From Chryseobacterium gleum (GTDB lineage Bacteria > Bacteroidota > Bacteroidia > Flavobacteriales_D > Crocinitomicaceae), in assembly GCA_945862165.1 (NCBI GenBank), contig CAMAXI010000012.1, positions 1-64,000 on the forward strand: 64,000 nt of DNA. Reading direction: 5' to 3'. Position 1 is the stretch's first letter. Every line of letters starts with the position of its first letter. A program made the translations under genes and the position numbers. This document shows positions 29,473-49,558 of this stretch, piece after piece. The notes beneath the pieces are model-generated. The model was given only the letters and a program-made list of their open reading frames with translations, did no database searches and was not told where the DNA came from.

Positions 29473-30219
29473 ATGTCTACCAATCCGCTTCGTATATTAG
29501 GAGTTATTCCTGCACGTTACGCATCCTCACGTTTTCCTGGGAAACCATTAATAGATTTAAAAGGAAAAACAATGATACAACGCGTTTATGAAGGCGTTGA
29601 AAAATCCAATGTATTGACAGATGTCATTGTTGCAACGGATGATGCTCGTATTGAATCTGAAGTTCTACGTTTTGGAGGTAAAGTTATGATGACTAGCGCT
29701 GAACACCCTTCGGGTACAGATCGTTGTGGAGAAGTTGCTAAAATTTATTCCAATTACGATGTTATAATTAATATTCAGGGGGATGAACCATTAGTTGATT
29801 TTCGGCAAATTGATCAGTTGGCAATTGCTTTTCAAGACGCAAAAACTTTTATAGCGACATTGGGAATTAAGCAAGTAACTATGGAAGATATACTTAATCC
29901 TAATCGCATCAAAATTGTAGTAGATAGTTCGCAAAACGCGCTCTATTTTTCCAGAAGTCCGATACCGAATTTTGTTAATTTTAAGGAAGAACCATTGCAT
30001 TTTTATCCATTTTATCGTCATATTGGTCTTTATGCTTACCGCAGTAAGACACTTCAAGAAATAGTGAACCTCACTCCTACTTTATTGGAACAAATTGAAT
30101 CATTAGAGCAATTGAGATGGTTATATTATGGATATCGTATTAAGGTAGTTGAAACAGATATTGAAACACCAAATATAGATGTGCCCGAAGATGTACAAAA
30201 GGTAGTTTCTTTACTATAA
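29473..30219 (+). CDS. kdsB: 3-deoxy-manno-octulosonate cytidylyltransferase
   Basis: 248 residues. KdsB activates Kdo to CMP-Kdo with CTP for lipid A core assembly. The nucleotide-binding start is VIPARYASSRFPGKPL, and the family motifs IVATDD, HPSGTDRCGEVA and NIQGDEPLV are intact; the C-terminal part shows SPIPNF and HIGLYAYRS. It follows the VWA gene by four bases, so it is probably in the deaminase-S41-VWA transcript. It indicates a Gram-negative outer membrane with Kdo-containing LPS. Compare the KdsC-like phosphatase at 46869. Confidence 0.97.
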   Translation: MSTNPLRILGVIPARYASSRFPGKPLIDLKGKTMIQRVYEGVEKSNVLTDVIVATDDARIESEVLRFGGKVMMTSAEHPSGTDRCGEVAKIYSNYDVIINIQGDEPLVDFRQIDQLAIAFQDAKTFIATLGIKQVTMEDILNPNRIKIVVDSSQNALYFSRSPIPNFVNFKEEPLHFYPFYRHIGLYAYRSKTLQEIVNLTPTLLEQIESLEQLRWLYYGYRIKVVETDIETPNIDVPEDVQKVVSLL

Positions 30220-30250: not shown

Positions 30251-30281
30251 TTGTTAAATAGCAACAAAAGTTGTAAATTTG
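30251..30281 (+). promoter_or_regulatory. Promoter giving a near-leaderless HU/SPOR transcript
   Basis: TTG (30251-30253), a 20-base spacer and TAAATTTG (30274-30281) match the -33/-7 consensus. With a start 6-7 bases downstream, transcription would begin at or next to the ATG at 30288, so the mRNA may lack a leader. Confidence 0.6.
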
Positions 30282-30287
30282 CACAGC

Positions 30288-31490
30288 ATGTATATTGAAG
30301 AATTAATAGGAGATTTATTGTTACGTCACAATTGTGTCGTGATTCCTACTTTCGGTGGATTTGTGGCTGGTCAAACATCTGCAACATTTGATGCTACCAA
30401 AGGAACGATTAATCCTCCGCGCAAATCCTTGTTATTCAACAAACAACTTATAAATAACGATGGATTATTAATTGCTGCTTATGCGCATGCAACCAAAAAA
30501 TCTTACGAAGAATCTAACGATTATATTCAAAAACAAATACAACATTGGCACCATAAGTTAGATGCTGGAGAACGTATTTCCATTGACCGAGTAGGTTTTA
30601 TTTTTTTAGATTCAGAACGAAATTTAGCATTTGAACAAGATCGTTTTCATAATTTATTGTTAGCATCCTTTGGTCTCGGGAAAGTTCATTTTGTAAGTCA
30701 AGAGGATTTGCAACTAATTGTTCAACAAGAAACTTTCACACTTAGCGGTGAGCCGTTGATAGAATCAGAGAATTTAGCTCCTATTTTTGAATTACCTATA
30801 AAGAATTTCGAAGAAACAGAAGTAGTATCGGATGAAAAAAAGCCAATTCGATCGATTAATTCTAAAAAGATTTGGAAATATGCTGTCGCAGCGGCACTAT
30901 TACCTATTTGTTTTTATACCTACTGGATACCAATGAAAACGAAGGTTTTAGAATCCGGAATACTTTCTTTTCAAGATTTCAATCCATTTCATATTACTCA
31001 GGATGGTTTGTATAATAAAGAAACTTTAGATTTCAGAATTAATCATAATATTGGAGAATCTGAATTAGATAAAATATTAAGAGATTTACCCAAAGATGTA
31101 GAAGTATTTTCTTATCCAGTAGATTCCGATTTATATGTCCCAGTGAAAATCAAAGAAAATTCTTCACCAAGAATTGTCGTAAACCCACCATTAGTTATTC
31201 AGAAAAATTTACCAATACCTTTCAAAACAAGTACGATTGCTACAACAGTTCAAAATAATTCAACCACTATAAAATCAGGACATCTAATTGTTGGTTGTTT
31301 TTCTACTGAGCTAAATGCAAAAAATCTAATTACTCAATTGAAACAAAAAGGCTTTAATGCATACATTGTAGATGTAAAAAATGGGTTACACCGAGTAAGT
31401 GCTTGTAAAAGTACTTCTGATTCTGTTTTAATCAGTGCTAAAGAAAAACTTTCTCCTTTACAAATTTCAGGTTGGATTTTACGTGATTAA
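30288..31490 (+). CDS. HU-CCDC81 and SPOR domain membrane protein
   Basis: About 400 residues from the ATG; a TTG start nine bases earlier is less likely because it lies in the promoter. Residues ~1-120 fit the two prokaryotic HU/CCDC81-like domains (YIEELIGDLLLRHNCVVIPTF split around GGFVAG, PPRKSLLFNKQL). One membrane helix is at ~205-225 (YAVAAALLPICFYTYWI). The C-terminal ~75 residues form a SPOR domain (GHLIVGCFST, LKQKGFNAYIVD, HRVSACK), which binds denuded peptidoglycan at division sites. The protein thus joins a possible DNA- or protein-binding cytoplasmic domain to a cell-wall sensor, and a cell-division role is inferred. Confidence 0.88.
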   Translation: MYIEELIGDLLLRHNCVVIPTFGGFVAGQTSATFDATKGTINPPRKSLLFNKQLINNDGLLIAAYAHATKKSYEESNDYIQKQIQHWHHKLDAGERISIDRVGFIFLDSERNLAFEQDRFHNLLLASFGLGKVHFVSQEDLQLIVQQETFTLSGEPLIESENLAPIFELPIKNFEETEVVSDEKKPIRSINSKKIWKYAVAAALLPICFYTYWIPMKTKVLESGILSFQDFNPFHITQDGLYNKETLDFRINHNIGESELDKILRDLPKDVEVFSYPVDSDLYVPVKIKENSSPRIVVNPPLVIQKNLPIPFKTSTIATTVQNNSTTIKSGHLIVGCFSTELNAKNLITQLKQKGFNAYIVDVKNGLHRVSACKSTSDSVLISAKEKLSPLQISGWILRD

Positions 31491-43028: not shown

Positions 43029-44198
43029 CTAAAAAGCTTCCTCACTTTTTTTTTTCAATATTTTTTTTTGTTCGGAAGATATTTTCAGACTTTTATTTCC
43101 ATTGATATTAATGTATTTTAAATTTGGCATTGTCCAAAGTTCATTTGGTATTTCTTTTAATTTATTTGCTTGTACATCCAAACGCGTGAGATTAATAATT
43201 TCAGTGAGTTGTTTAGGGATTGTTAACAATTGATTATCATTTATGTAGAGTTCTTTTAAGTCTGTTAAATTCGATATATTTTCAGGAATATCTCCAATTT
43301 TATTATATCCTAGATTTAAAATTTCCAAATTGAAAAGTCGTGTTATAACTTCCGGGAAAACAGGCATTTCTAGAAATGTCATATCCAACTCTTTTAAAGC
43401 GGTTAATTGTGAAAAATTTTCATCTAGTTTCATCAGAGGATTAAAACTTAAATTTAAATACACCAAAGCATTCAATTTGGAGATCTCTTTTGACAATTCT
43501 TTAATACCATTTTCTTGTAAATCTAATCGCGTAAGATTTTTTAATTCACCGATGGAAGCAGGAATTACAAATAGTTTATTCCTTGCTAAATTGAGTGTTT
43601 TTAAACTTAAAATAACTGAAATATTATTTGGATATAGAATAAATCGATTGATAGAAAGATCTAATCCTTCTAATTTAGAAAGAATCGAAATAGATTCTGG
43701 TAAAAATGAGATTTTATTGTTACTGGCTTCCAACCAAAATAAATTTGAAATATTACCAATGTTTTCTGGAAGCGCTGAAATTTTATTAATTGAAATATCT
43801 AATTCTTTTAAATTTTTAAGTTCGCAAATGGAATTTGGAAGTGCTATTAATTGGTTATGGCTAATATTTAACGTTCTTAATTTGATTAATTTACCAATAG
43901 ATTCAGGGAGTTTAGTAATGTTGTTATTTGAAGCATGTAGGTAATTAAGTTTCACTAATTTCCCAATCGTTTCAGGTAAATTAGTCAATCGATTATGTGC
44001 AACATTTAATTCCTCTAGGTTTGTTAATTGCGCTACTACATCTGGTAATTTTTTAAGTTTTGCATAACTTAAATCGAGTTTGTAAACATTTAATGGGTTT
44101 TTTAAAGCGTCATTGAGATCTGTATATACTTTTTCTCTTTGCGTAAAACAAATACTGCAAATACTAATAAAAAAAATTAGGAGACCACTTTTATTCAT
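43029..44198 (-). CDS. Secreted leucine-rich repeat protein
   Basis: 389 residues with a signal peptide (MNKSGLLIFFISICSICFT). From residue ~38 to ~375 there are about 14 leucine-rich repeats of 23 residues, with the pattern LxxLxxLxxLxISxNxLxxLPxxI (for example LTNLEELNVAHNRLTNLPE). This is the common bacterial form that makes a curved binding surface. A Lys/Glu-rich tail ends the protein. It overlaps the MFS gene by four bases (ATGA), so it is the last gene of that minus-strand transcript. Its ligand is unknown. Confidence 0.9.
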   Translation of the reverse strand: MNKSGLLIFFISICSICFTQREKVYTDLNDALKNPLNVYKLDLSYAKLKKLPDVVAQLTNLEELNVAHNRLTNLPETIGKLVKLNYLHASNNNITKLPESIGKLIKLRTLNISHNQLIALPNSICELKNLKELDISINKISALPENIGNISNLFWLEASNNKISFLPESISILSKLEGLDLSINRFILYPNNISVILSLKTLNLARNKLFVIPASIGELKNLTRLDLQENGIKELSKEISKLNALVYLNLSFNPLMKLDENFSQLTALKELDMTFLEMPVFPEVITRLFNLEILNLGYNKIGDIPENISNLTDLKELYINDNQLLTIPKQLTEIINLTRLDVQANKLKEIPNELWTMPNLKYININGNKSLKISSEQKKILKKKSEEAF

Positions 44199-45553
44199 AT
44201 TTCCAAAATTCCTATTCTACGACCGATTACCTTTTCTTCTTTAGGAACGAACCAAAGTAAAATAAATCCAATTAAAAAGAAAACGCCAATTGAAATAACC
44301 GAAAAACGTAAATCTCCTGTTACAGCTTCAATCATTCCGAAGAAAAATGTACCTAACACAATTCCTAATTTTTCTGTAACATCATAAAAAGAGAAATAAC
44401 TTGCATGGTCTTTTGTTTCTGGTAAAAATTTAGAATAGGTTGAACGTGCAATCGCTTGTACTCCTCCCATTACTAATCCCACTGTAGCAGCTAGTATGTA
44501 AAACTGTACTGGTGTTGTGATAAAATAAGCACCAACACAAATACCCAACCAAATAGAAATGGATAACATTAAAGTTTTTATATTACCGATTTTACTAGAT
44601 AGTCGTGACATACAAAAAGCACCAAAAGCACCTAATATTTGAATCAATAAGATTGCGATTATTAATCCGGACTTTTCACCACCTTTAGGCCAATTGATTT
44701 CTTTCGAAGCGAAAATAGTTGCCATTAACATCACTGTTTGCACCCCTGTATTGAAAAAGAAAAAAGAATATAAATATTTCTTTAATCGTTTAGTTTTCTT
44801 GAATTTACGATAAACGATGTATAACTCTCGGAATCCTCGCCATAAACCTCTTTTCGGCTTTCTACCATAGACATTGTTAGGTAAAACACGATAGGTAATT
44901 TGACTAAAAACGATCCACCAGACACCTACAAAAACAAAACACCATTTGGTCGGATAATCTAATACTTGAATCCAAACGAGACAAAGAATTAGCAGTAACA
45001 TAGATCCAAAATACCCCATACTGAACCCCAGAGCGGAAATTTTATCTTGGTCTTGTGGTTCTGCAATTTCAGGTAAAAAAGCATTGTAAAACACCAAACT
45101 ATTCCAAAATCCGATACTTCCAAAAAAGACGGACAACATCCCTAATTCTATATGGTCTGGATTAAACCAAAATAAGGAAATACAAGCGAATGAACCTAGA
45201 TAACAAAAGAAACGCATAAATTTCTTTTTACTACCTGTGTAATCAGCAATCCCAGATAACATTGGTGAAAGAAAAGAAACAACTAAAAAAGAAGCTGAAA
45301 GAACGAAAGAAAGTAAAACAGAATTTGTTATGTTTAAACCAAGAAAATCTACTTTAATAGCTACTCCAGCTGGTAATTCTAATTCTTTTGCTTTTTCAAC
45401 CGTAGTTTTGAAAAATTTTGCTTTGAAATTATTCGTAGTGACTGTATCATAAAAAATTGGGAAAATAGCGGAGGAAATCACCAAATTATAGACAGAATTC
45501 GCCCAATCGTAGAATACCCAACCTCTAATTATTTTTTTATTTCCTTTTTCCAT
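44195..45553 (-). CDS. MFS transporter, UMF1/Atg22-like
   Basis: 452 residues from the ATG at 45553; a TTG nine codons upstream gives a less likely start. About 12 membrane helices are visible. The start segment IIRGWVFYDWANSVYNLV is the hallmark of the UMF1 family related to yeast vacuolar effluxer Atg22, and GGVQAIARSTYSKFLPE is the conserved motif between helices 10 and 11. It probably exports small molecules such as amino acids. It overlaps the LRR gene by four bases and lies 97 bases after the lysine/alanine-dehydrogenase-like gene on the same strand. Confidence 0.92.
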   Translation of the reverse strand: MEKGNKKIIRGWVFYDWANSVYNLVISSAIFPIFYDTVTTNNFKAKFFKTTVEKAKELELPAGVAIKVDFLGLNITNSVLLSFVLSASFLVVSFLSPMLSGIADYTGSKKKFMRFFCYLGSFACISLFWFNPDHIELGMLSVFFGSIGFWNSLVFYNAFLPEIAEPQDQDKISALGFSMGYFGSMLLLILCLVWIQVLDYPTKWCFVFVGVWWIVFSQITYRVLPNNVYGRKPKRGLWRGFRELYIVYRKFKKTKRLKKYLYSFFFFNTGVQTVMLMATIFASKEINWPKGGEKSGLIIAILLIQILGAFGAFCMSRLSSKIGNIKTLMLSISIWLGICVGAYFITTPVQFYILAATVGLVMGGVQAIARSTYSKFLPETKDHASYFSFYDVTEKLGIVLGTFFFGMIEAVTGDLRFSVISIGVFFLIGFILLWFVPKEEKVIGRRIGILEI

Positions 45554-45650
45554 TATTTTAGATGAAAGACATTTAGACAAAAAATTTAAACATAAATAAA
45601 TCTATAAATAATTTGGTCTTTGCTCTTTGTTCTTTCTGTCTTTGTTCTTT

Positions 45651-46865
45651 TTAATCATTTACATATTCCTGTAGGTAAGCAAAACCTTCAGTTAATTCAC
45701 CGTCTAATGTTGTTTCACTCCCTCTTCCGATAATATTATCTGGATCTCCGTTGAAAAATGTTGGTAAAATAAATTGGATAAAGTCGTTCCCGAAATCTTC
45801 CGAAGCGTCTTTTGGTAATTCACAAGGAAGATTATCAACCGCCATAACTGTTATAGTGCCATCTTGTTGGTAATCTGTTTCTTCCGATGTTTTTGGATTG
45901 TATCCGTAAATTGGATCCGCAATTGTACTTGGTCTTAATGTAGAAGCAATTGGCCCTGCAATATCACAAGAAATGTCTGCAACTACTTTTAATCGTAAAT
46001 TCTCTTTCTCTAAATCTTCTTTCGTTAATAAATCGGGTGATTTATTCGACCAAAAATGACACGCAACATACATATCCGATTGATCAATGTAGGTAGGAAG
46101 TATGGATTTAAAGTCAGATGGATTTGTGTAAAATTCTTTTTTATCGAATTCTTTTCCTTCTTTTTGTGCATAATAATCACCTACTTCTAGATGTGTAAAA
46201 ACTGCTTGATTAAACTCTTTTGATAAATATTCATTCGGAGCAACTTCCATGATTGGTAATAAATGTAAAATTTCCCTTGCACCAAATCCTACCCTACCAA
46301 ATCCTGTTGCAACCACCTTTGTATTTGCAGGAAGTACCACTTTTTTTAATTCTTCTTCTAATTCTTTTCGGTCATGACATTCAGATGCTTTTTTCAGCGA
46401 AAATAAATTATTCTTCAATCCAAAAGCTCTAAAACCATTGTAGCACCCTACGATTCCTGCATAACGCCCAAAACCGATTAAACGTTTTCCTACTTTGTTT
46501 TTAAGTACTTCATAATCAATTAGTTGTATTTTTTTAGCGAGAATTTCTTGCAATAATTTTTTATTGTAGGATTGTTTTTTTATCGTATGCGAGAAGAACA
46601 TAAAGCGTTTATTTGGAATCAATGCTGAAACCGGCACTTCTTTTACACCCATAATTAAATCACAAGTAGACAAATCTTCCTGTACAATAATTCCTTTTTC
46701 GGTGTATTGATTATCTGAAAAACTTCGAATTGGACTCGGTTGAACTACGATTTCCACTTGTGGATATTCTGATTGAATTCTTTCACATTGATCCGGAGTT
46801 AAAGGCACACGAAAATCAGCTGGCACCTTTCCTTCTCTAATAATTCCAATTTTAAACTTTTCCAT
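45651..46865 (-). CDS. Saccharopine/alanine dehydrogenase-like NAD(P) enzyme
   Basis: 404 residues. The N-terminal part (IGIIREGKVPADFRVPLTP) is the AlaDh/PNT substrate domain, and the Rossmann motif is VVATGFGRVGFGAREIL near residue 200. ADISCDIAGPIASTLR and TIADPIYGYNP resemble the lysine-forming saccharopine dehydrogenase of yeast more than bacterial alanine dehydrogenase. The reaction cannot be fixed from sequence: lysine or alanine metabolism is likely. The gene begins three bases after the KdsC-like gene stops, so it belongs to the operon from 49558 downward. Confidence 0.75.
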   Translation of the reverse strand: MEKFKIGIIREGKVPADFRVPLTPDQCERIQSEYPQVEIVVQPSPIRSFSDNQYTEKGIIVQEDLSTCDLIMGVKEVPVSALIPNKRFMFFSHTIKKQSYNKKLLQEILAKKIQLIDYEVLKNKVGKRLIGFGRYAGIVGCYNGFRAFGLKNNLFSLKKASECHDRKELEEELKKVVLPANTKVVATGFGRVGFGAREILHLLPIMEVAPNEYLSKEFNQAVFTHLEVGDYYAQKEGKEFDKKEFYTNPSDFKSILPTYIDQSDMYVACHFWSNKSPDLLTKEDLEKENLRLKVVADISCDIAGPIASTLRPSTIADPIYGYNPKTSEETDYQQDGTITVMAVDNLPCELPKDASEDFGNDFIQFILPTFFNGDPDNIIGRGSETTLDGELTEGFAYLQEYVND

Positions 46866-46868
46866 ATT

Positions 46869-47558
46869 TTACAATGTTCCCAGCGGAGCTGGCAATAAAT
46901 AATTATCTATAAATTCTCTAACACAACCTTGCCCACCATTCAGGGATAAAATTATATCTACTTGTTTTTTAACAACTTCTACAGCATCTGCAGGACAAGC
47001 AGAAAAGCCTACTACACGCATGATACTTAAATCATTAATATCATCTCCAATAATTGCGACTTCTTCTAAAGAAATTTGCATTTCTTCTATCCAAGATTCC
47101 AATACAGAAATTTTAGAATCACGTCCAACATAACAACGTTTCATTCCTAACATTTCAGCGCGTTTATGCACTAATCCGCCTGTAAATCCGGAAGAAATAA
47201 TTCCTAATTCTACCTGACCTTGTTTAATTACCTCTATAATCCCCATACCGTCTTTGGTATTGAATTTCTTTTGTTGATCAGCACTTTCAGAAAAAAACAT
47301 CCCGCCGTCTGTCATCACCCCATCTACATCTAGAATTAGCAATTTGATTTTAGCTAATTTTTCTGTCAGATACTCATTTTTAAAGAGTGGTTTGAATAAA
47401 AGCGCGTGTAAGTCCAATTCGTACTCTTCCGTAATCGCTTCCAACTCCACCAAGGGAATTTCGGTCACGCTTTCTACTTGAAAATCAGCTAAAAAAGACT
47501 CGAAATCTAAACCGAATTTTGCACAAATCCCTCGGATATTTTGTTCTAAAAAAACCAT
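46869..47558 (-). CDS. KdsC-like HAD phosphatase with N-terminal extension
   Basis: 229 residues, whereas KdsC is usually about 170-190. Residues ~71-229 form the HAD phosphatase domain: LLILDVDGVMTDGG with Asp77 and Asp79, GIISSGFTG, and GDDINDLSIM. This fits Kdo-8-phosphate phosphatase. The first ~70 residues are an added helical domain ending in YELDLHALLFKPLF, which resembles the C-terminal part of XRE-type helix-turn-helix domains (inference). It starts exactly where the DAHP-synthase-like gene ends, with no gap. The actual substrate may be Kdo-8-phosphate or a related sugar acid. Confidence 0.8.
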   Translation of the reverse strand: MVFLEQNIRGICAKFGLDFESFLADFQVESVTEIPLVELEAITEEYELDLHALLFKPLFKNEYLTEKLAKIKLLILDVDGVMTDGGMFFSESADQQKKFNTKDGMGIIEVIKQGQVELGIISSGFTGGLVHKRAEMLGMKRCYVGRDSKISVLESWIEEMQISLEEVAIIGDDINDLSIMRVVGFSACPADAVEVVKKQVDIILSLNGGQGCVREFIDNYLLPAPLGTL

Positions 47559-48557
47559 TTATACAATGTTATAACCCACGCTAGTTGCTACTGGTCGTAA
47601 GGAAGAAATTAAACTTTCAAATTCTGCATGATTCAACTGTTGGGAAGCATCTGATTTAGCTACCGATGGATCTGGATGAGTTTCAATTAACAAACCATCA
47701 ATCCCCATAGCTACACATGCGCGTGCTAAATCCGCTACACCATAGGCATATCCCATAGCGTGACTTGGATCCAATATAATGGGTAAGTTTGTATGTTGTT
47801 TCAACCAAGCTACACCGCATAAATCTAATGTGAAACGAGTGCCTGTTTCAAACGTACGAATTCCACGTTCACATAAAATCACATTTGGATTACCACCTGA
47901 AAGAACAAACTCGGCTGCTTGAACAAACTCTTGTAAAGTTGTCCCAAAACCTCGTTTAATTAATATTGGTTTTTGTGTTTTTGCACATGCGCGAAGAATT
48001 CCTTGGTCATACATTGCTTTTGCACCTACTTGAATAATATCTGAATAAGCAATAACTTCATCAATTTGTGTTGCGTCACGTACTTCCGTAATAACAGTCA
48101 AACCAAACTCATCCCGCATTTTTGCCAATAATTTCAATCCCTCTAGCCCTAATCCTTGGAAACTGTATGGACTAGTTCTTGGTTTATAACATCCTCCACG
48201 AAGTACATTAAGACCTAAACCGCTAATAAAAGTGGAGGAAGCTCGAATTTGTTCTTCACTTTCCACAGAACAAGGTCCACCAATAATTACCGTATTCTTT
48301 GTATCCCCACCAATCAATACATTTCCGAACTGAACAGAACGTTTTTTGGCGGAAAATTTACTTGAGGCTAATTGTAAATCATTTGGAAACACCCAAGAAT
48401 TCACCGTTTTATCTACTAATCTCGCTGGAACTTCTTTTACTCCTGAACCTGTAATCAAATAGTTCTCCTGTTCATAAACTATATGAAATGCTTGGATTTC
48501 TGAAGCAATTTGGGCTGCTTCAAGTCCAGTAATATTTTTTTGTAGTTGAATAATCAT
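47559..48557 (-). CDS. 3-deoxy-7-phosphoheptulonate synthase, type I-beta
   Basis: 332 residues: an N-terminal ferredoxin-like domain (~1-65) and a TIM barrel. Motifs are GPCSVES (94-100), KPRTSPYSFQG (125-135), IQVGAKAM, KRGFGTT, CERGIRTFE and DPSHAMG. KPRTS is the erythrose-4-phosphate-site signature of DAHP synthase; Kdo-8-P synthase has KANRS there. It would feed aromatic amino acid synthesis, but its neighbours are a KdsC-like phosphatase and an epimerase-CBS protein. It overlaps the upstream gene by four bases (ATGA) and abuts the downstream one. Confidence 0.92.
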   Translation of the reverse strand: MIIQLQKNITGLEAAQIASEIQAFHIVYEQENYLITGSGVKEVPARLVDKTVNSWVFPNDLQLASSKFSAKKRSVQFGNVLIGGDTKNTVIIGGPCSVESEEQIRASSTFISGLGLNVLRGGCYKPRTSPYSFQGLGLEGLKLLAKMRDEFGLTVITEVRDATQIDEVIAYSDIIQVGAKAMYDQGILRACAKTQKPILIKRGFGTTLQEFVQAAEFVLSGGNPNVILCERGIRTFETGTRFTLDLCGVAWLKQHTNLPIILDPSHAMGYAYGVADLARACVAMGIDGLLIETHPDPSVAKSDASQQLNHAEFESLISSLRPVATSVGYNIV

Positions 48558-49558
48558 ATTTCTCCTCGAATTAGGTTCACAAAAGTAACAATTCCTACAG
48601 CATTTAATCCTTCATTCAAAACAGGTAAATAAGTTATAGGAAATGCATATTTTTTTATGAGTTGTAACATATCGTTGACAGTAGCTGTCTCTTGAATTCC
48701 AACCGATGCAGTATTAATCATCGATGATACATCCAAATTAGAAAGGTCATTTATCGAATGTAGTAATGTTTTACGGACATCTGCATTAGAAACCAGACCT
48801 ACATATTCATTATTTTCCTTAACAACGAGCGCAAATCCAAGCTTTCCTTTTTCAATCGTTTCGAGTACATGCTTAAATGATAAGTCTTTTAAATCAATTA
48901 CCGGACTTTCTTCTAAAGGAATCATAAAATCAGACAAAACAAATTGAGACTCGACATTTCTTTTGGTAAGATTCATTAAAGCATGTCCAATACTAGGTCC
49001 ATTAAATAAATATGAACCAGATACAGAACTACTTACACCCATATTTCTTAGAATAAAAGAAACCTCACCATTTACACCACCATCTACATGAATGGATTTT
49101 GCAGGATACAATTTTTTGAATTTGCGAATTTTCGAGAAATTAAACGTATCAAATACTCCCCCACTTTGACCTGGAATCGTTGCCATTACCAAAATGAAAT
49201 CAAAATCTTCATATTCTTGAAAAACAGAAACATCTGTAGGTGTAATTACTGCTAAACCTTTTTTTCCTTTAAAATTAGAAGGTAATTCTATTTTTTCTTT
49301 TAAATCTTCGTATTGAAATGTTACATATTCTACAGGGTTTTCTCGAAGTAAATCCTTGTATTTACTCGGGTATGGGGTAATAATATGTAGGTCTATCGGT
49401 AAATCACACCAAGTTCTTATTTTTTTTATATCCTCAAAAACAGAAACGTCGTCATTACAATCCACATGTAATAAATCCACTTGATGTGCTTGTAAATCTA
49501 AAATAACGTCTTTGAGTGGACGTTTCTTATCGCTATAAATAGATGCAGAAATTTTCAT
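48554..49558 (-). CDS. Ribulose-phosphate-3-epimerase-like barrel fused to two CBS domains
   Basis: 334 residues. The first ~205 form a TIM barrel with the epimerase metal ligands conserved: His31 and Asp33 (LLHVDCND), His58 (IDLHII), Asp159 (IHVDGGV), and the phosphate loop PGQSGGVFD (129-137). The last ~120 contain a CBS pair (YVGLVSNADVRKTLL is typical of CBS in KdsD-type isomerases). The fusion is unusual. The CBS pair may sense a nucleotide. It is the first gene of the operon and overlaps the DAHP-synthase-like gene by four bases. Activity on pentose phosphate is inferred. Confidence 0.75.
   Translation of the reverse strand: MKISASIYSDKKRPLKDVILDLQAHQVDLLHVDCNDDVSVFEDIKKIRTWCDLPIDLHIITPYPSKYKDLLRENPVEYVTFQYEDLKEKIELPSNFKGKKGLAVITPTDVSVFQEYEDFDFILVMATIPGQSGGVFDTFNFSKIRKFKKLYPAKSIHVDGGVNGEVSFILRNMGVSSSVSGSYLFNGPSIGHALMNLTKRNVESQFVLSDFMIPLEESPVIDLKDLSFKHVLETIEKGKLGFALVVKENNEYVGLVSNADVRKTLLHSINDLSNLDVSSMINTASVGIQETATVNDMLQLIKKYAFPITYLPVLNEGLNAVGIVTFVNLIRGEI

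Follow-up and report, generated by a model that had tools for sequence, protein, structure and literature searches.

A conserved epimerase-CBS operon as a candidate replacement for KdsD and KdsA in the Kdo pathway of Bacteroidota

An operon of epimerase-CBS, DAHPS-type synthase and KdsC-like genes

The 64,000-nucleotide stretch of Chryseobacterium gleum DNA analysed here (assembly GCA_945862165.1, contig CAMAXI010000012.1; hereafter the window) carries a run of four minus-strand genes. In transcript order, these encode a protein with a ribulose-phosphate 3-epimerase (RPE) fold joined to a pair of CBS domains (RPE-CBS), an aldol synthase of the 3-deoxy-D-arabino-heptulosonate 7-phosphate synthase (DAHPS) type, a KdsC-like HAD phosphatase and a dehydrogenase. 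The first two genes share a 4-base ATGA overlap, the second and third abut with a gap of 0, and the third and fourth are 3 bases apart, just as the original prediction had read them from the open reading frames (ORFs) of the window. That prediction saw in the operon a possible variant route to a sugar acid, with the RPE-like barrel standing in for KdsD and the DAHPS-type enzyme for KdsA. Since kdsA and kdsD were not found, the gene order is kept in relatives and the operon and KdsA exclude each other in a sample of 197 genomes, this proposal is now strongly supported. Kdo (3-deoxy-D-manno-oct-2-ulosonic acid) is the sugar acid that anchors lipopolysaccharide (LPS). The pathway that makes it is conserved in Gram-negative bacteria and serves as a drug target, and KdsA is treated as its hallmark.

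Gene order in relatives, a check suggested along with the prediction, was examined in 58 fetched loci. The synthase gene lies no more than 150 bp 3' of the RPE-CBS gene and on the same strand in 54 of these, mostly with the 4-base overlap, and a KdsC-like gene lies within 300 bp of the synthase gene in 45; given this pairing, we rejected chance as an explanation of the order. In the exceptions, the RPE-CBS and synthase genes are 11 kb apart (L095) or 1.7 kb apart (L254), the contig ends (L097), or the two genes are adjacent with predicted ORF starts that overlap by 115 bp (L286). BLAST of the loci did not find a KdsC-like gene in 7 of the 38 loci L250-L287. The dehydrogenase gene, counted as part of the unit in the original prediction, follows the KdsC-like gene in 11 of 20 loci (L085-L104) and in 3 of 38 (L250-L287), all in the window's own family; as it is kept in only part of that family, we dropped it as a pathway member. 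The four-gene operon is real, and its conserved core consists of the genes for RPE-CBS, the DAHPS-type synthase and the KdsC-like protein, which we refer to together as the module.

The RPE-CBS protein matches PF00834 at 69.6 bits, and its CBS domains are recognised by PF00571; against the Rpe model TIGR01163 it scores 65.4 bits, below the cut-off of 212.6. Four residues that we take to be the metal and acid-base set of the Rpe superfamily, H31, D33, H58 and D159, are kept in all 59 RPE-CBS homologues. Relative to plain RPE, represented in this comparison by a single sequence (L277, 260.5 bits to PF00834), the substrate site differs at three positions in all 59 homologues (Q82 where plain RPE has His, S132 where it has Gly and G134 where it has Gln); I60 replaces Met in 58, and Asn or Lys at position 35 replaces Met in 48. 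The best matches in the Protein Data Bank (PDB) to an AlphaFold 2 model of the protein (mean confidence score, pLDDT, 89.7) are RPEs, and its CBS half is closest to 4o9k, the CBS pair of a putative arabinose 5-phosphate isomerase from Methylococcus capsulatus, in which the ligand is presumably CMP-Kdo. In place of the SIS domain of KdsD the protein has an RPE fold, and its match to the KdsD model TIGR00393 is confined to the CBS half; the C-terminal CBS pair, a trait of KdsD/KpsF, is present as judged by both PF00571 and 4o9k.

The synthase exceeds the cut-offs of NF006421 (360.2 bits, cut-off 335) and TIGR01361 (318.6 bits, cut-off 267.75) and falls far below that of the KdsA model TIGR01362 (130.6 bits, cut-off 314). 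Its AlphaFold 2 model (pLDDT 89.3) matches the Thermotoga maritima DAHPS 1rzm over its full length (TMq 0.88, 342 columns), including the N-terminal domain, for which no Pfam model match was obtained; KdsA folds in the PDB also match the model, from E 1e-22. The motif KPRT[ST]P occurs in 57 of 58 operon synthases and the motif KANR in none of the 58, a KANRS-type motif being what we take to be the hallmark of KdsA. When compared with 11 other Bacteroidia DAHPS sequences, the operon synthases were found to have residues of their own: K180, Y183, F242, G248 and N257 in 58 of 58, and D184 and C247 in 57. F242 is also found in the Pyrococcus furiosus and Aeropyrum pernix enzymes, and the KdsA column of this comparison consists of four sequences (the 4 of 12 KdsA loci that passed the motif filter). 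Type I-beta enzymes can reportedly be loose in their choice of aldose; the title of the 2005 paper by Schofield and colleagues on the P. furiosus enzyme begins with "Substrate ambiguity". The synthase is a DAHPS by family, and its context is that of KdsA.

The KdsC-like protein scores 129.7 bits against TIGR01670, over the cut-off of 106.95, and stays below the cut-offs of the KdsC equivalog (134.1 bits, cut-off 208) and of the KDN-9-phosphatase model (145.2 bits, cut-off 180). By eye, the N-terminal ~65 residues of the window protein resemble a degenerate XRE-type helix-turn-helix. The KdsC-like ORFs at some other loci, such as L098, L262 and L270, have 155-167 codons, too few for such an extension.

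Distribution of the module and of KdsA

The window's genome (2.89 Mb, 99.97% complete) has the end of the Kdo pathway and the operon, and the first two enzymes of the pathway were not found in it. Because its only PF00793 genes are that of the operon synthase and one on contig 4, KdsA is absent within the sensitivity of PF00793, which elsewhere finds complete KdsA at 184 bits or more. Likewise, as TIGR00393 touches nothing but CBS domains in this genome, no SIS-type KdsD was found. The contig 4 gene encodes a DAHPS-chorismate mutase fusion (PF00793 and PF01817), which can serve aromatic synthesis. The search for kdsA, kdsD and a further DAHPS elsewhere in the genome, which had been suggested with the original prediction, thus spoke for the variant route on the first two counts and against a link to shikimate on the third. 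At the far end of the pathway, the KdsB of the window (222.7 bits to TIGR00466, cut-off 155.2) is the single PF02348 match in the genome, and a gene of the WaaA family (Kdo transferase) is over the Pfam cut-off of PF04413. Elsewhere in the genome, contig 15 (G000:C15) holds another KdsC-like gene, a short one, and contig 1 a plain RPE-type gene (C1:205651).

We searched 197 Bacteroidia genomes, each at least 95% complete, with profiles for RPE-CBS, KdsA, WaaA and KdsB. RPE-CBS was found in 41, over the whole or nearly the whole length in 36 and over the RPE half in 5 of family f14, and KdsA was found in 151. No genome had both, 192 had exactly one of the two, and five had neither (G051, G093, G146, G210 and G229), the KdsA of G051 being cut by a contig end. 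The exclusion has a Fisher p of 3e-37 under independence of the genomes, which are not independent. KdsB was present in 193 genomes (41 of 41 with the module and 147 of 151 with KdsA) and WaaA in 192 (39 of 41 and 148 of 151), and both routes occur within families f16, f26, f29, f35, f40 and f66 and within genera g42 and g45. The search for KdsD and KdsC covered 40 nearer relatives. Full-length RPE-CBS is encoded by 25 of these, in which no KdsA passed the cut-off and the SIS half of KdsD gave no match better than E 1e-5; among the 26 relatives that belong to the window's own family or have RPE-CBS, KdsA was over the TIGR01362 cut-off in none. Neither route was found in three relatives, G007 (own family, 80% complete), G029 (91%) and G039 (96%), the last of which has a KdsA-like fragment of 40 bits. 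The module is found, then, in genomes without KdsA (and without KdsD among those tested) that have retained KdsB and, in almost every case, WaaA.

The two downstream enzymes were compared between genomes of either route, using KdsB from 34 of the 41 module genomes and 27 of the 151 KdsA genomes (61 rows) and WaaA from 21 of 39 and 19 of 148, with rows chosen by listed coordinates and for family mates. The KdsB tree groups the proteins largely by family and contains 15 changes of route, of which well-supported branches force at least 4. No column of KdsB has a differing majority residue at 60% between the two groups, and 40 columns are invariant across all rows; in WaaA a single column differs, with Val or Ile. 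A signature of the product was sought in these residues and not found, which argues that whichever route supplies it, the sugar acid reaching KdsB and WaaA is identical or almost so.

Taken together, the mutual exclusion, the exchange of routes within families and genera, and the retention of KdsB and WaaA with no shift in their residues indicate that the module most likely replaces KdsD and KdsA at the head of the Kdo pathway. It looks like a widespread replacement in Bacteroidota: the replacement itself is well supported, and the exact substrates of RPE-CBS and the synthase are what we infer in addition. About one-fifth of the sampled Bacteroidia (41 of 197) would otherwise be judged incapable of Kdo synthesis, even though KdsB is found in all 41 of them and WaaA in 39, a gap that the module would close. 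It would also show that the first two steps of the pathway were exchanged jointly on more than one occasion, would add two predicted activities (supply of an aldose phosphate by an RPE-fold enzyme, and a DAHPS-type reaction in the service of Kdo synthesis), and would correct the annotation of RPE-CBS as a pentose-phosphate enzyme and of the synthase as a shikimate enzyme.

Several observations weigh against this conclusion. KdsA is also missing from some genomes without the module: neither of the two was found in G093, G146, G210 and G229, and no complete KdsA in the relatives G029 and G039. The test for KdsD covers the 40 relatives only. In the RPE-CBS of the five f14 genomes (L282-L285 and L287) Pfam does not recognise the CBS domains; these genomes keep the synthase and the KdsC-like gene, and KdsA was not found in them. 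By its motif (KPRTS) and its family scores the synthase is still a DAHPS, with no sign in its sequence of five-carbon aldose use. The WaaA of the window's genome is below the cut-offs of all five NCBIfam WaaA equivalogs that it matches (best 129.8 of 363). Exchange of routes through operon transfer may mean that the many genomes represent fewer events. In the KdsB tree, 26 of 58 inner branches are unsupported, the route shows some clustering by kinship (15 changes, compared with 20.2 in shuffles; 4 of 500 shuffles were as low), and a test on independent pairs has only 4 supported pairs, of which 4 of 4 point in the expected direction (p 0.125). Finally, a second PF00793 gene was not found in module genomes G064 (L273) and G223 (L274). 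These two may have a DAHP synthase of a different type for aromatics, or one that the assembly lacks, or they may use the operon enzyme for both purposes.

The sole PF00793 gene of G064 and G223 being that of the operon synthase also fits a different reading, in which the operon is a regulated entry to the shikimate pathway, with an ordinary DAHP synthase and an RPE that raises the supply of erythrose 4-phosphate. The family scores of the synthase, its DAHPS motif and its T. maritima DAHPS fold, N-terminal domain included, are all in keeping with such a role. A further PF00793 gene is nevertheless present in 39 of the 41 module genomes, the neighbours in the window (judged by eye, and in the window alone) are not aromatic genes, and the absence of KdsA would be left unexplained. 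We consequently rejected shikimate regulation as the principal reading and regard it as very improbable. The other idea of the original prediction, a regulated branch that would tie Kdo synthesis to pentose phosphate and shikimate metabolism, fares no better, given the further DAHPS-family gene in those 39 genomes and the way in which the module tracks the absence of KdsA.

One relative, G033, bears on another explanation. It has KdsA and KdsD together with a synthase of the operon subfamily and a long KdsC-like gene, and no RPE-CBS (L288:6079-7747, minus strand), so that the pair of synthase and KdsC-like protein can have another role; this, too, counts against replacement. The ORF upstream at this locus looks methyltransferase-like by eye. 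The operon might accordingly make a different ulosonic acid, for a capsule, a glycan or a secondary metabolite, with the loss of KdsA and KdsD a separate matter, Kdo being, for instance, scavenged or made by a third enzyme. KdsC-like proteins do also act on nonulosonate phosphates, and the window protein reaches 145.2 bits on the KDN-9-phosphatase model, though this is below the cut-off of 180. An accessory product would not, however, be expected to give the distribution seen, in which 192 of 197 genomes carry either RPE-CBS or KdsA but not both, 193 carry KdsB and 192 carry WaaA; this pattern fits replacement, and we consider the alternative improbable.

A parallel substitution was seen for KdsD alone. 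SIS-type KdsD was not found by TIGR00393 in G026, G028 and G039. G026 and G028 have KdsA and a transaldolase/FSA domain fused to a CBS pair (PF00923 and PF00571), which in G028 comes directly after a true KdsA gene (333.3 bits, cut-off 314) and before a HAD gene, and in G026 lies far from KdsA; for G039 the contig holds no more than the CBS end, next to a similar HAD gene, and the transaldolase barrel is presumed. Escherichia coli FsaA can form arabinose 5-phosphate from glycolaldehyde and glyceraldehyde 3-phosphate, according to PMC9947464 and the legend to Fig. 8 of PMC11166783. The transaldolase-CBS protein would be a second, unrelated substitute for KdsD. Each of the 15 genomes of the order outside the window's family has one of three heads: SIS-type KdsD in 11 (5 over the TIGR00393 cut-off, 6 matching the SIS half at 160-174 bits), transaldolase-CBS in 3 (one of them the presumed case) and RPE-CBS in 1. 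This supports a view of such CBS fusions as interchangeable, feedback-regulated suppliers of an aldose phosphate.

The features of the window and the transaldolase loci are collected in Table 1. The Atg22-like transporter gene is a co-directional neighbour of the module in only part of the window's own family, and we rejected it as a pathway member. In G060, kdsB and a HU-CCDC81/SPOR gene lie directly upstream of the RPE-CBS gene (L255:8072-9181 and from 9335, minus strand), which places kdsB one gene from the module; the same pair of genes is found in the window, ~17 kb from RPE-CBS.

Table 1. Positions of the module, its neighbours and the parallel transaldolase fusions (positions are in the window unless a locus is named)
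Feature	Position	Strand	Family models
RPE-fold enzyme (residues 1-~200) with CBS pair (~208-334)	48554-49558	-	PF00834, PF00571
DAHP-synthase-I-beta-type aldol synthase with N-terminal regulatory-type domain	47559-48557	-	PF00793, NF006421, TIGR01361
KdsC-like HAD phosphatase with ~65-residue N-terminal extension	46869-47558	-	TIGR01670
AlaDh/PNT_N-type dehydrogenase, non-core neighbour	45651-46865	-	PF05222
Atg22-like MFS transporter, non-core neighbour	44195-45580	-	PF11700
kdsB, CMP-Kdo synthetase, proposed consumer of the module's product	29473-30219	+	TIGR00466, PF02348
HU-CCDC81/SPOR gene, 3' of kdsB	30279-31490	+	
Transaldolase/FSA-CBS fusion	L078:1471-2484	-	
Transaldolase/FSA-CBS fusion	L076:1477-2487	-	
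CBS end only	L077:1471-1845	-	

Proposed chemistry and the identity of the product

If the module does replace KdsD and KdsA, its chemistry can be outlined from the families of its proteins. The RPE-fold barrel, which keeps both catalytic aspartates and the metal histidines, would carry out an RPE-type proton transfer on a sugar phosphate, most likely yielding D-arabinose 5-phosphate, either from ribose 5-phosphate by epimerisation at C2 or from ribulose 5-phosphate. Feedback control could come from its CBS pair, which may sense a product from late in the pathway, CMP-Kdo being a plausible one; the similar pair in KdsD may do likewise. The DAHPS-type synthase would then condense the aldose phosphate with phosphoenolpyruvate (PEP) to Kdo 8-phosphate, and the KdsC-like HAD protein would remove the phosphate to free the ulosonate, with the module thereby doubling KdsC. 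Ordinary KdsB and WaaA would activate and then transfer the sugar acid. We think it likely that this sequence of supply, condensation and dephosphorylation is correct as a whole; that the product is Kdo itself, made via arabinose 5-phosphate, stands at about even chances.

The same sequence of steps could instead serve a seven-carbon variant, in which the RPE-fold enzyme would make threose 4-phosphate from erythrose 4-phosphate at C2 and the synthase would join this to PEP to give 3-deoxy-D-lyxo-heptulosonate 7-phosphate, which the KdsC-like protein, KdsB and WaaA would use in the place of Kdo. On chemical grounds, 3-deoxy-D-lyxo-heptulosonate has the ring stereochemistry of Kdo and lacks C8, and the chemistry of RPE fits erythrose 4-phosphate directly, because this sugar is ribulose 5-phosphate without C1. 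The KPRTS motif of the synthase is of the four-carbon, erythrose 4-phosphate type. Furthermore, RPE-CBS and the synthase are replaced together, RPE-CBS occurring with KdsA in 0 of 41 genomes, whereas transaldolase-CBS pairs with KdsA; if RPE-CBS simply made arabinose 5-phosphate, such mixing would be expected at times, so this favours the seven-carbon variant and tells against the arabinose 5-phosphate route. Set against this, the absence of differing-majority columns in KdsB, with its 40 invariant columns in 61 rows, means that there is no visible change on the C7/C8 side of its pocket. The seven loci among L250-L287 at which BLAST found no KdsC-like gene would need a phosphatase from elsewhere, perhaps ordinary KdsC. 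A heptulosonic acid as an LPS sugar was not found among the titles and abstract starts of the open literature, and to our knowledge the seven-carbon analogue of Kdo is not known from LPS. In passages of PMC3149649, on KdsB, contacts to the Kdo side chain were not found, and these give no decision between a seven- and an eight-carbon product. We regard the seven-carbon variant as possible and on balance unlikely.

In its broadest form, this idea would give Bacteroidota several non-homologous heads of the Kdo pathway, built on SIS, on transaldolase/FSA and on RPE with a KdsD-type CBS pair, the RPE version having a DAHPS-derived synthase of its own and making seven-carbon Kdo from threose 4-phosphate. 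That combination is speculative and rather doubtful; were it true, lipid A in about one-fifth of the sampled Bacteroidia (41 of 197) would be linked through a seven-carbon sugar acid. For RPE-CBS, transaldolase-CBS or a substitute for KdsA, nothing was found in the open-licence literature by title and abstract start, which is weak evidence of novelty.

Comparison with known enzymes

The module's proteins each resemble a known enzyme and depart from it. Like KdsD (KpsF/GutQ, the SIS-CBS arabinose 5-phosphate isomerase), RPE-CBS has a catalytic domain followed by a C-terminal CBS pair, its CBS pair has 4o9k, from a putative isomerase of this kind, as its closest PDB match, and its gene is the first of a run with the synthase and KdsC-like genes; unlike KdsD, its catalytic half is an RPE-type TIM barrel and not a SIS fold. 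With Rpe it shares the fold and all four metal and acid-base residues, but it scores under the TIGR01163 cut-off, has an altered substrate site and a CBS pair, and occurs in a genome with a separate plain RPE-type gene. The KdsC-like protein is over the TIGR01670 cut-off, as KdsC is, and differs from it in the N-terminal extension of ~65 residues of the window protein and in falling below the KdsC equivalog cut-off.

For the synthase, the likeness to KdsA lies in the barrel of the superfamily and in the place it would occupy in the proposed pathway, whereas it is under the KdsA cut-off, is without the KANR motif and has an N-terminal domain. With the T. maritima-type DAHPS I-beta it shares the full-length fold, the KPRTS motif and family scores over the cut-offs. 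From that enzyme it is set apart by residues of its own (K180, Y183, D184, C247, G248 and N257), by its linkage to the RPE-CBS and KdsC-like genes, and by its presence where KdsA is absent.

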